Shown: positions 205 to 22,916 of the stretch, one piece after another | Numbering within the stretch: position 1 is the stretch's first letter | How the letters are laid out: each line of letters opens with the position of its first letter | From: Tannerella sp. | Lineage (GTDB): Bacteria; Bacteroidota; Bacteroidia; Bacteroidales; Tannerellaceae | Length of the DNA: 36,133 nucleotides | NCBI GenBank assembly: GCA_031266995.1 | Contig: JAIRZY010000095.1 | Span: forward strand, 1 to 36,133 | Direction of reading: 5' to 3' | Program-made: the position numbers and the translations under genes | The notes under the pieces: generated by a model | Seen by the model: only the letters and a program-made list of their open reading frames with translations | Told to the model about the DNA's origin: nothing | The model's database searches: none

Positions 205-298
205 TGTTCGCCCGCATTTCGACGTCATGCAAAACGGCACCTTGCGTAACATCAATGATTTATATCATTTCTTATCCCGAACTCAGGCTGAAAAAGCG

Positions 299-4424: not shown

Positions 4425-4465
4425 CGAATCCCGAATCTTGAATCTTAAATTTTGAATCTTGAATT
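4425..4465. repeat. degenerate TTGAATC/TTAAATTT short repeat tract
   Basis: cgaatcccgaatcttgaatcttaaattttgaatcttgaatt, ends 1 bp before the stop codon of the OmpA-like gene. Confidence 0.7.
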
Positions 4466-14473: not shown

Positions 14474-17053
14474 TTGATTATGAATATGAACAGGAAAATT
14501 TTGCTTTTACTGATGCTTGTGCAGACCGTCTTTCACGGATTTTCGCAGGACGAATATTATTTTGCAGGCCGCGGCAAACTCAATCCCGCCATTCCTGCGC
14601 CCGAGGAGTTTTTCGGCTTTCGCATCGGTCATTCACTTGTCCGTTACGACAAGACGGTCGAGTATTTTCGCCTGCTGGCAGAAAAGTCCGACCGCGCCTC
14701 GCTCGAAGTGTTCGGTCATTCGTATGAAGGACGCGAACAGGTAGTGCTCATCATCACTTCACCCGAAAATCAGCGTAATCTGGAAGCCATCCGCAGGGAG
14801 CGCCTGAAAGTGACCGACCCGTCTGCAACGCCCGACATCGCTTCGCAGAAAGTCGTCGTGCATCTGGGTTATAACGTTCACGGCGGCGAGATTGCCGGCA
14901 TGGACGCATCCGTCGTGGCGGCATACTATCTCGTAGCCTCCGAAGATGAGGATATCACGCGCCGGCTGCAGGAGGCGGTGACGCTCGTCGAGCCTTCGCT
15001 CAACCCCGACGGACGCGACCGCGCGGCCACGTTTATCAACGGTTTCGGATCGGTTGTACCCGTCGCCGACCCTGCCGACCGCGGTCACAGCGGCGGCTTC
15101 GTGCCCCATCGCGGCAACCACTTCTTCTGCGACCTCAACCGCGACTGGCTCCCCCTCTCACAGCCGGAAAGCCGCAATCGCGTGGCTTACTATCACAAAT
15201 GGTATCCTAACGTCTATCTCGACTTCCATGAAATGGGCAGCAGCAGCACGTACTATTTCGAGCCTTCGCCGCGACCGACCTGGAGTCCCGGCATCCCGCA
15301 GGCAACCTACGAGGTGATGCACAACCTGCTCGCCCGCTACTTTGCCGGTGCGCTGAACCGTATCGGCTCTCTGTACTACACAAAAGAAAATTTCACCAAC
15401 TACTCGCCTATCTACGGCTCCACCTATCCCGATTTCGAGGGCGGCGTCGGTACCACGCTCGAAATCGGCAGCACGTCGGGCGTAGAGATAGAGACCGAAG
15501 CAGGCCTGCGCACCTTTGCACGCAATGTCCGCGACAATTTCGAGATAAGCATTGCCGCCCTCCGCGCCGCCACAGGCGACAAAGCCGCCTTCCTCGATCA
15601 CCAGAAAGAATTTTTCAAAAGCGCTTTGACGCAGGCGGACAAAGACGCCGGGAAGTATATCGTCTTTGGCAGTCGCGACGATAAATCGCTCAACAGCATC
15701 TTTATCGACTATCTGCTGACCCACCGGATCGCAGTGTATGAACTGGCAGTGCCGTTCGCACAGGGCGACAGGAGCTTCTCGCCCGGCAGCGCATACGTCA
15801 TCCCCTGTCGCCAGCCACATTACAGAATACTGAACGCCATCTTTGAGGAACAGAAATCTTTCGCAACCAACGTCTTCATGGACATCTCGGCGCCGAGCAT
15901 CGCGCACGGCTACGGCATCCCGTTCGTCAGGACCGAAAGCGCGGTGAAAGAAGGCGTGCAGGTAACGAAAGCCTCCGGGATACGCGGCTCCGTCGCAGCA
16001 CGTTCAAACTATGCCTATGCCTTCGAATGGCACGACTATCTGGCGCCAAAAGCCCTCTATTACCTGCAAAGCAAAGGCGTGAAAACCCGCGTGGCGCAAA
16101 AGGCATTTACCTCTAAAACGGGCGACGGCGAGAAGCGCTTCGCCCGCGGAACAATAGTGATACCGGTCCATTATCAGGACGCTTCGGCCGACGAACTTTA
16201 CAGGCTGCTGACCGAAGCGGCCGCCCTGGCAAATATCACCGTCAGCGCCATCACCGACGGATTCAGCGTTGCGGGCGTCGACATCGGCAGCGACAATATC
16301 CGCGTCACAAAAAAACCTGTCGTCGCCACCATAACCGGCAGCGGATACGGCGACGGCGCCAACTGGACAGGCGTCGGCGAACTCTGGGCGCTGCTGAGCA
16401 ATACGTATAACATCCCGCTGAGCAAAATCGACCGTCAGGCGTTTGAAAACCTCAACCCTTCGCGCTACACGACGATCGTCCTGACCGGCCCGGCGCCCTT
16501 ATCCCGGCAGGCCGTCGCGCGGCTGACCGACTGGGTAGAAAACGGCGGCACGCTGATAGCCGCGGGCAGCGGCGCGGCGCAATATGTCATATCTGCCGGT
16601 ATTGCGACAGGACTGGAGGTCGATACCGCAGCCATCGAACGCGACTCCCGGCCTGCCGCAGCAGCCGGCAATCGCAGAGGCGGCAGTCCGGACGAATCCA
16701 TCAGCGGCGCGATCCTCAACGGCTCCCTCAATCTGACTCATCCGCTTACTTACGGTTTTACCTCCAAAGACTTCCATGTTCTGAAAACCTCACCTTCGGG
16801 ACTGCCTCTTCCGCAAAACAAAGACAACACCGTGCTGACGGTGACGTCGGGCGAGCCGGTGAGCGGATACGTACCCGATAAACTGCGTGAAAAACTGAAA
16901 GACCAGGCCATTGTCGTTGCGCTCAATCGCGGACGGGGCGCCATTGTCCTCTTCGGCGAGTCGCCCACCTTCCGGGGCTACTGGCTGGCGCCCGGCAGGC
17001 TGCTGACAAACGCCGTGTTCTTCGGGCTGGGAACGGCGATCAGGGAGTATTAG
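14474..17053 (+). CDS. M14-family zinc carboxypeptidase-like exported protein with long C-terminal extension
   Basis: HxxE in NVHGGEIAG, NPDG, DLNRDW, third His in DFHEMG, catalytic Glu region TTLEIGS; start overlaps the end of the upstream ORF. Confidence 0.9.
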   Translation: MIMNMNRKILLLLMLVQTVFHGFSQDEYYFAGRGKLNPAIPAPEEFFGFRIGHSLVRYDKTVEYFRLLAEKSDRASLEVFGHSYEGREQVVLIITSPENQRNLEAIRRERLKVTDPSATPDIASQKVVVHLGYNVHGGEIAGMDASVVAAYYLVASEDEDITRRLQEAVTLVEPSLNPDGRDRAATFINGFGSVVPVADPADRGHSGGFVPHRGNHFFCDLNRDWLPLSQPESRNRVAYYHKWYPNVYLDFHEMGSSSTYYFEPSPRPTWSPGIPQATYEVMHNLLARYFAGALNRIGSLYYTKENFTNYSPIYGSTYPDFEGGVGTTLEIGSTSGVEIETEAGLRTFARNVRDNFEISIAALRAATGDKAAFLDHQKEFFKSALTQADKDAGKYIVFGSRDDKSLNSIFIDYLLTHRIAVYELAVPFAQGDRSFSPGSAYVIPCRQPHYRILNAIFEEQKSFATNVFMDISAPSIAHGYGIPFVRTESAVKEGVQVTKASGIRGSVAARSNYAYAFEWHDYLAPKALYYLQSKGVKTRVAQKAFTSKTGDGEKRFARGTIVIPVHYQDASADELYRLLTEAAALANITVSAITDGFSVAGVDIGSDNIRVTKKPVVATITGSGYGDGANWTGVGELWALLSNTYNIPLSKIDRQAFENLNPSRYTTIVLTGPAPLSRQAVARLTDWVENGGTLIAAGSGAAQYVISAGIATGLEVDTAAIERDSRPAAAAGNRRGGSPDESISGAILNGSLNLTHPLTYGFTSKDFHVLKTSPSGLPLPQNKDNTVLTVTSGEPVSGYVPDKLREKLKDQAIVVALNRGRGAIVLFGESPTFRGYWLAPGRLLTNAVFFGLGTAIREY

Positions 17054-17148
17054 CCTGTTATCGAAGCTGCGTATTGGAATCTCTGCAAAAGTATTTCCAT
17101 GAATTTTGCTGTAAACCCAAATATCCATTCGCGCATTTATTGATTCTC

Positions 17149-17460
17149 TGCCGGAATTTCCGGGAGACTTGTCACCATGAGTGGCAACCTTCCCGGATTT
17201 TCCGAGAGACTTGCCACCATGAGTGGCAACCTTCCCGGATTTTCCGGGAGACTTGTCACCATGAGTGGCAACCTTCCCGGATTTTCCGGGAGACTTGTCA
17301 CCATGAGTGACAACCTTCCCGGATTTTCCGGGGGACTTGCCACCATGAGTGACAACCTTCCCGGATTTTCCGGGAGACTTGCCACCATGAGTGACAACCT
17401 TCCCGGATTTTCCGGGGGACTTGCCACCATGAGTGGCCGGCCTGCCGCAAGTTGCGGGAG
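17149..17460. repeat. tandem array B, 7 x 42 bp plus a partial leading hairpin (acttgccaccatgagtggcaaccttcccggattttccgggag)
   Basis: Units from 17167 with 42-bp period to 17460; dyads ttgccac/gtggcaa and tcccgga/tccggga in most units; unit 7 has a different second stem. Confidence 0.95.
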
Positions 17461-17552
17461 ACTTGCCAACGGGTATTTCGGCTGACAGGCGGATGACTGC
17501 CTCTGTCTCATGCGAAAATCAGTGTGGGAAAGGCAAATTACGGACAGTCATT

Positions 17553-18266
17553 TCAAAGTATTTCCCTCAGCTCCGCAAAGTCGGAGATGACGGCGTCGGC
17601 CGTCTCGCTGCCGTCGCAGTCGTTCCAGCCGGTCTTCCTGAGCCATATCGTGCGGCATCCGGCGGCGGCCGAGGGAACGATGTCCTTGTCATACGAATCG
17701 CCGACGGCGACCACTTCACATGCCGGCAGGCGCAGCGCCTCCACGCCGAGCCGGAATATCTGCGGATCAGGCTTGCGGACGCCGACGACGGCCGATTCTA
17801 TCACGGCGGGGAAAAATTCGCTCAGCCGGAAGTCGGCGAGGACGGCGGCTATGTTGCCGTAGAAGTTGGATACCAGCGCGAGGGGATAGTCCGTCGCGAG
17901 CGCGGCGATGACCGGCCGCGCGGCGTCGACCGAGCGCGCGGCGTATACGTAGCAGCGGTCGGCGACGGCGCGCACCGTCGACGGCGCGGCGGCGACCGGG
18001 AAGCCGTTTTCTTTCAGGAAGTCGACCTGGATGCCGATCTTCAGGCGCATCATGTCGGCAAACGTGTGGCCGGGGCGGATGAGGGGCGTGCGTCCGAGCG
18101 TCCTTTCGCCGTGTATGTAGGCGTTTCTGAACGTGTCGCGGTCGGCAAACGTGAGGCCCTCCGCCTCGTATGCCTGCCGGATGACTTCGGCCCAGTGTAC
18201 GCCGTTGCTGTCTATCGTCCCGCCGTAGTCGAAGAGGATGCCCCTGATGTCGCGGCGGTCTATCAT
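17553..18266 (-). CDS. HAD-superfamily hydrolase (HAD-IA-like)
   Basis: Motif I GILFDYGGTIDSNG, LVSNFYGN, KPDPQIF, VAVGDSYDKDIVPSAAAGCRTIWL; start at 18266 with ATGA overlap to the upstream gene. Confidence 0.88.
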   Translation of the reverse strand: MIDRRDIRGILFDYGGTIDSNGVHWAEVIRQAYEAEGLTFADRDTFRNAYIHGERTLGRTPLIRPGHTFADMMRLKIGIQVDFLKENGFPVAAAPSTVRAVADRCYVYAARSVDAARPVIAALATDYPLALVSNFYGNIAAVLADFRLSEFFPAVIESAVVGVRKPDPQIFRLGVEALRLPACEVVAVGDSYDKDIVPSAAAGCRTIWLRKTGWNDCDGSETADAVISDFAELREIL

Positions 18267-19183
18267 GATGTTTCTGCGGACAGGCGGGCGACGAACGACT
18301 TGCAGAAACGCTCGTGCGTGACAACCATATAGGCCAGCAGGACGTTGAGCACGGTCAGCTCGAAGGCGAAGTATGCCCACGGCACGTTGAGCAGCAGCGA
18401 GAGGCAGAGCACGAGGGCGCGCGTGTTGAACGAAAGCATGTTGGTATACTTCATCAGCGGCAGGCTCTTCGCGCGGAACTCGGCGCGAAACCATTCGGGG
18501 ATGTCGGCGGGATACTTCCGCGCCAGCACGGCCCTCAGCTCGAGGAACCGCACGGCCCACGCTTCCTGTCCTTTCGTGTAGCTGTAATACATGCGGTCGG
18601 AGAAGCGTGAGAAGAATCCGCCCGCGTTTTTCCGCTCGCAGTGCGCGCGCAGCGTCTGCGAATCGGCGAGTTCGCTTCCCGCTTCGCCCTTGATGAAAAA
18701 CAGGTGCACGTTGCGGTAGTAGTCGGCCATCGCCGCCTGCCGTCCGTGGAAAAATCCCGTCACGGCGCCCAGCAGCCATATCCAGAGATCCCACTGCGGC
18801 ATCAGGCGGAAGCAGATGGCGGCGTAGATGCAGACGAACCACACGTCGCCGCAGAACCCGTCCAGCATGCGTCCGAGCGGCGACGCCTGTCCCGTCATGC
18901 GCGCCAACTGGCCGTCGGCGCTGTCATACGCGTTGGCCCAGACGAGGAGCAGCATCCCGGCAACGTTTATCCACAGTTCCGTGAAATAGAAACACGCGCC
19001 CGCCATCGCGCCGATCAGCATCGAGGCGAAGGTCACGACGTTGGGATGAACGCCCAGCCGCCTGAAAAGCAGCGCCCAGAAGTAGCCCGCGGGACGGTAG
19101 AAATGGATGTCGATAAACTCTTCCGTGTCCGTCGATTTCAGCGTGGCCTCGATGCCTGCACACAGCTTGCGATCCTTCTTCAT
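18263..19183 (-). CDS. CDP-alcohol phosphatidyltransferase family membrane protein
   Basis: YDSADGQLARMTGQASPLGRMLDGFCGD variant of the CDP-alcohol motif; MKKDRK start at 19183 overlaps the upstream stop as ATGA. Confidence 0.9.
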   Translation of the reverse strand: MKKDRKLCAGIEATLKSTDTEEFIDIHFYRPAGYFWALLFRRLGVHPNVVTFASMLIGAMAGACFYFTELWINVAGMLLLVWANAYDSADGQLARMTGQASPLGRMLDGFCGDVWFVCIYAAICFRLMPQWDLWIWLLGAVTGFFHGRQAAMADYYRNVHLFFIKGEAGSELADSQTLRAHCERKNAGGFFSRFSDRMYYSYTKGQEAWAVRFLELRAVLARKYPADIPEWFRAEFRAKSLPLMKYTNMLSFNTRALVLCLSLLLNVPWAYFAFELTVLNVLLAYMVVTHERFCKSFVARLSAETS

Positions 19184-22635: not shown

Positions 22636-22748
22636 CCTCCTGCCGCGCGGGCGCCGAGCGGCGCACCGGCATGGCGAACACTGGGGAACGGCAGCCTGAC
22701 GACGGAGCATATATATTAATGTATGTCGGACGGGCTGCCGATTCTTTT

Positions 22749-22916
22749 GAGACGCCGGCACCCCTGGGGTGCCGGGCCGCCGGAACTTCCGAGACGCCGG
22801 CACCCCAGGGGTGCCGGGCTGCCGGAACTTCCCAGACGCCCGCACCCCTGGGGTGCCGGGCTGCCGGAACTTCCGGGATGCCGGCACCCCTGGGGTGCCG
22901 GGTTGCCGAAAGGCGC
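22749..22916. repeat. tandem array C, 4 x 42 bp (gagacgccggcacccctggggtgccgggctgccggaacttcc)
   Basis: Units 22749-22790, 22791-22832, 22833-22874, 22875-22916; near-perfect 10-bp-arm dyad ccggcacccc-t-ggggtgccgg. Confidence 0.95.

Follow-up and report, generated by a model that had tools for sequence, protein, structure and literature searches.

The window analysed here, a stretch of 36,133 nucleotides from a Tannerella sp. genome (contig JAIRZY010000095.1), contained a tandem array of seven 42-bp units (array B, 17166–17459, + strand) between the 3′ ends of two convergent genes. The left neighbour (14474–17053, + strand) encoded Peptidase_M14 and DUF4350 domains, and the right neighbour (17553–18842, − strand), whose start codon was uncertain, encoded a HAD hydrolase domain; both had their 3′ ends towards the array. 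Units started at 17166, 17208, 17250, 17292, 17334, 17376 and 17418, and each was built of GAC, a 7-bp stem with a 5-nt loop, CCT, and a second 7-bp stem with a 3-nt loop, giving 42 bp in total. About 1 in 100 shuffled units was as palindromic as the consensus unit of array B. Arms of the first dyad were TTGTCAC/GTGGCAA in units 1 and 3, TTGCCAC/GTGGCAA in unit 2, TTGTCAC/GTGACAA in unit 4, TTGCCAC/GTGACAA in units 5 and 6, and TTGCCAC/GTGGCCG in unit 7, where the second dyad was CCGCAA-G-TTGCGG (17445–17457). The arm variants and unit-7 dyad listed in an earlier sequence-only reading of this DNA were all present, letter for letter.

Several familiar identities were considered for the repeats. 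A CRISPR array was rejected, as every part of the unit repeated head to tail without unique spacers, and a plasmid origin gave no match. No Rho-independent terminator (a GC-rich stem followed by a T run) was found on either strand between 16900 and 17700, and no structured RNA in Rfam 15 matched the window above its gathering threshold. A coding repeat was considered since 42 is divisible by three, but arrays of 41 bp were equally common and are not a multiple of three, so coding cannot be a general reason for such arrays; some of the arrays with 42- and 21-bp units may encode protein, and those of 41 bp are not in frame.

The sequence-only reading had proposed that substitutions in the two arms of array B were linked, with a double compensatory change in unit 4. 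Neither claim held when array B was taken alone. The single variable pair read T·G, C-G, T·G, T-A, C·A, C·A and C-G in units 1 to 7, so that it was Watson-Crick in three of seven units versus 3.6 expected by chance, and the change in unit 4 is the outcome expected of independent drift. When the arms were permuted, 107 of 1,000 shuffles paired as well across all pairs, and 244 of 1,000 had as many double changes, in a test that took in one extra, spurious unit upstream of the array.

Two further arrays of the same plan were found in the window. Array A (299–467, + strand) comprised four 42-bp units whose second stem was CTCAC/GTGAG in units 1 and 2 and CCGAC/GTCGG in units 3 and 4, a real paired change within one array and a better one than any in array B. 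Array C (22731–22908, + strand) comprised 4.2 units of 42 bp with no recognised end repeats; its units held a 10-bp GC-rich palindrome, and it too lay between convergent genes. Short tandem repeats of the same 7-mer, GAATCTT, occurred at 531–562 and 4433–4464.

Terminal repeats and the element family

A search of its own genome with array B returned 54 matches, of which 27 had E below 1e-5. The assembly of this genome comprises 284 contigs (92.8% complete, with 7% contamination) and was surveyed as sampled stretches; many arrays lie at contig ends, so that copy numbers may be wrong. Arrays in this genome lay between CCCGAAATRTCCATTAG and CCAATGGACATTTCGGG, with 77 matches to this pattern compared to six for the reversed one, and intact relatives of the array B element had inverted ends of the form CCCGAAATGTCCATTAG. 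We collected 16 complete elements of 92–590 bp, all filled with repeats and none with a transposase gene inside, and 10 of the 16 were flanked by identical 5-bp A/T-only sequences representing target duplications. Remnants of the same ends were recognised around array B. A decayed 5′ terminal inverted repeat, CCCAAATATCCATTCG (17116–17131, + strand), had lost one base relative to the consensus CCCGAAATGTCCATTAG and scored three mismatches to that pattern, and a decayed 3′ terminal inverted repeat, CCAACGGGTATTTCGGC (17466–17482, + strand), matched the consensus CCAATGGACATTTCGGG at 13 of 17 positions. As these remnant ends at 17116 and 17466 carried three to four mismatches, and the flanks of array B held no clear target duplication, the insertion appears to be an old one.

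The same family of ends accounts for unit 7, whose second stem had been described as a swap of one stem for an unrelated sequence. A stem of the form GCCGCAAGTTGCGG was found with at most one mismatch at 14 of 23 unique 5′-type element ends, and 3′ ends carried diverged forms of it. In array B the supposedly replaced stem, GCCGCAAGTTGCGGG (17444–17458, + strand), is this conserved end module, with the end-repeat remnant following at 17466, and a 5′ boundary stem, GCCGGAATTTCCGGG (17150–17164, + strand), is placed as the terminal stem is in other copies. The second stem of unit 7 is thus a boundary module belonging to a larger element, not a stem that was swapped.

No IS1380-family transposase with these ends was found in this Tannerella sp. 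genome. In a congener, an IS1380-family transposase (NF033539) lay between the same end repeats (locus L084, 3484–5026), where its fragments each fell below the curated cut-off of NF033539 because the reading frame is broken, and in other congeners copies of an IS1380-family transposase adjoined the same end repeat. Shared terminal inverted repeats, target duplications, no internal transposase and an autonomous partner (in the congeners), four of the features by which miniature inverted-repeat transposable elements (MITEs) are recognised, were found in the family. Array B is probably what lies inside an old and decayed IS1380-type MITE, a non-autonomous element filled by a minisatellite of near-palindromic 41/42-bp units, whose arms would have been kept complementary mainly by template switching.

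The ends and their contents were found in other combinations. A second type of end repeat, CTTATCCCGAACTCAGG, lay at 271–287 (+ strand), 12 bp before array A, and adjoined 23-, 41- and 42-bp arrays there and at four other loci, indicating that arrays of this sort are carried by two or more types of ends. Composite elements at five loci had a GAC/CCT array running straight into a different 41-bp array (GAACTGATCGGAATCGGCTCCGGTTCTGAAAAGTTACGACA) within the same ends. At four more loci, three in congener G017 and one in Prevotellaceae, the same end repeat was followed by other short palindromic tandem units, of 21 or 42 bp by eye. Seven loci on contigs from Muribaculaceae and other Bacteroidales carried an end repeat read as CCCGAAATGTCCATTAG followed by TCA(C/T)TCAAAATGTCCATTAGG, several of them at contig ends, and this is likely another repeated element.

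No B-type array was found behind the orthologous HAD gene at 24 congener loci, suggesting that the insertion of array B is lineage-specific, although gene order on the other side differed there and no locus offered a clean empty site. Three congeners carried unrelated 21-, 41- and 42-bp arrays behind that gene. Conservation of arrays by position was rejected, as across five genes there was no excess behind array genes (3/24, 0/7 and 2/25) compared to controls (4/25 and 0/26). Congener arrays with periods of 20–24 or 39–44 bp occurred more often downstream of the five test genes (9 of 107 cases) than upstream (3 of 112).

Stem covariation across the family

Within array B the arm substitutions were uncorrelated; in the wider family they were correlated. 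We assembled 30 arrays (207 units) of the GAC/CCT plan from this genome, extracted without a pairing threshold; first scans for units had demanded good pairing, and so favoured covariation, and the analysis was therefore redone without a threshold on interior units only. Across these arrays and those of congeners the 3-nt linkers GAC and CCT were common while the stems differed. Arms paired at 0.733 within the same unit compared to 0.692 and 0.661 between neighbouring units, and 28 interior cells were doubly compensated versus 11.8 in shuffled data (sd 3.0; none of 500 shuffles as high). Between arrays, 195 of 210 arm positions of the first helix were paired, compared to an average of 139 and at most 157 in shuffled data, in units whose choice had depended in part on pairing.

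The same plan with further stems was found in three congeners (G012, G014 and G015). Consensus units, one from each of 16 arrays of this genome and congeners, were paired in 91.1% of cells, with 37 cells changed on both sides versus 14.8 after shuffling, and their covariation score was 0.476 compared to 0.167 (none of 500 shuffles as high), in an alignment restricted to the 42-bp set and with shuffles that take no account of relatedness. Sliding the partners by one to three columns lowered the score to 0.169 or less. At least 10 distinct complete stems were found (GCCAC, TCCCC, TCCGC, TCCTA, GTACA, TCCAA, GCATA, TCCCG, GCACA and CATAC types), with new types in the congeners. The earlier suggestion of selection on, or generation through, a fold-back structure is thus not supported by array B, with its uncorrelated arms and terminal module in unit 7, but is supported by the family.

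Origin of the paired stems and of their period

Covariation of this kind could in principle arise by shared ancestry and homogenisation of plain minisatellites descended from a small number of ancestral units, in which nothing would tie one arm to the other. Arrays are indeed homogenised internally, the linkers are common to the family by descent, and the cells counted above are sequences rather than events; against this, at least 10 different complete stems with new types in congeners, and the collapse of the score when partners were slid by a few columns, make such an origin very improbable. Alternatively, the stems might be RNA hairpins under selection, transcribed from the neighbouring genes and serving to terminate transcription or protect mRNA 3′ ends. 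The strong covariation would suit such hairpins, as would the very high stability predicted for folds of either strand (z −14.4 and −14.1, values that repeats alone inflate) and the location of array B between convergent genes, a setting in which arrays of this genome were somewhat enriched (13/40 vs 11/74, p 0.03, with crude gene calls). This preference was weak here, however, and the trend was opposite in congener G003, and the element strand was sense to flanking genes in eight cases and antisense in five. Selection on one RNA strand should leave G-U in excess of A-C mismatches on that strand, but in interior units the element strand had 48 G-U and 51 A-C cells (28 and 32 distinct events). 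The minimum-energy fold of four units was one long rod (−97.0 kcal/mol) rather than local hairpins (−70.8 kcal/mol), and the 16900–17700 interval offered no terminator-like site. We consider selection on RNA hairpins unlikely. Since the whole-array fold is a long rod, arms that correlate only within their own unit are in keeping with a local event in DNA. When template switching takes place between inverted repeats, inverted spacers are expected as a by-product, and among loops within the same stem we found five reverse-complement pairs, compared to none reversed and one complemented, though the count is small. Equal numbers of G-U and A-C mismatches, inverted loops and the lack of a terminator-like site in the interval searched therefore favour fold-back generation at the DNA level rather than selection acting on a single RNA strand, a mutational route that we infer from these patterns.

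Compensatory changes in stems have been documented to arise by template switching (PMC8794818). In the fold-back scheme, unit copy number would change by slippage or unequal exchange, while arms would be kept complementary mainly by fold-back template switching during replication, with one arm templating the other. Such switching would alter several bases on both sides of a stem together and would invert loops, with no G-U intermediates along the way. The element would then be mostly a neutral passenger between the 3′ ends of convergent genes and, if transcribed from either side, would give a strongly folded 3′ tail. Template switching does not account for the constancy of the 3-nt linkers or for the 41/42-bp period.

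Among loci of this genome homologous to array B or to its end repeats, the only periods between 36 and 46 bp were 41 and 42. The same lengths recurred in congener G003, which is without array B-type ends: in an unselected 500 kb of its complete genome (25 stretches) we found 67 arrays with a period of 35–50 bp, belonging to 33 unrelated sequence families, whose periods ranged from 39 to 44 and were nearly all 41 or 42. Longer periods in G003 were often near-multiples of these (82, 84, 123, 126, 165, 168 and 210). Other congeners had periods mostly of 21–24 and 41–42 bp, and in G017 the period was 23 bp. Of 35 arrays in which two dyads were clear, 33 had the dyad centres separated by exactly half a unit, a spacing that is automatic in any near-palindromic tandem unit, so it is the period itself that needs explaining. 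One candidate is a DNA lattice, in which dyads placed every 20.5–21 bp, or two helical turns, are read by shape by a dimeric or cruciform-binding protein while sequence is free to vary. The concentration of periods at 41/42 (with 21–23) over unrelated sequences in several congeners, and the half-unit placement of dyads, are what such a lattice would give; yet that placement is automatic, a period of 41 bp loses register with the helix over the length of an array, fewer than half of the G003 arrays (25/62) had significant dyads, and the binding protein is hypothetical, and we regard a lattice as quite unlikely. A broader possibility, which we put forward tentatively and with some doubt, is that intergenic minisatellites of this group obey a sequence-independent length rule (41–42 or 21–23 bp, which is roughly four or two helical turns, and often including dyads), that either fixed-length copying by fold-back or a shape-reading protein creates or selects them, and that MITE ends merely carry them.

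Comparison with known elements and significance

The closest known systems are the BrickBuilt and MITE464/PgRS elements of Porphyromonas gingivalis and, more loosely, the BOX elements of Streptococcus pneumoniae. BrickBuilt belongs to the same order of bacteria and likewise has terminal inverted repeats around a head-to-tail minisatellite, is intergenic, and resembles our elements in its roughly 19 copies with predicted long stem-loops (PMC4596501). It differs in a unit of 22–23 nt rather than 41/42 and in ends similar to the IS5-family ISPg1/ISPg9 rather than IS1380, its sequence is unrelated, and its published ends (GAGACCTTTGCA type) are unlike CCCGAAATGTCCATTAG by eye; stem covariation or interchangeable stems are not among the features given in the portions of the report drawn on here (PMC4596501). 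MITE464/PgRS, likened here by its description, is a MITE with 41-nt tandem direct repeats, a period also found in our arrays, and those same portions report its sequence as having no match outside P. gingivalis (PMC4596501). BOX elements are also MITE-like, their end modules making up an inverted repeat that encloses internal modules in varying number, but they are found in a Firmicute, their boxB modules are not described as interchangeable palindromes, and their sequence is unrelated, leaving a likeness in architecture only (PMC3049150). The precedent for maintenance of RNA stems by template switching involves the same mechanism, with multi-base compensatory changes in inverted repeats, but concerns RNA genes and not tandem arrays in transposable elements (PMC8794818). 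In a limited search of the open-access literature we found neither interchangeable stems that covary nor a common 41/42-bp period described.

Within one complete genome, unrelated sequences return again and again to a 41/42-bp period, a regularity that is unexplained. Compensatory substitutions are usually held to prove that an RNA structure is under selection. In the arrays described here, stems covary without a G-U bias in hundreds of units, dozens of arrays and several species, making the mutational alternative directly testable, and such arrays are a source of false structured-RNA calls.
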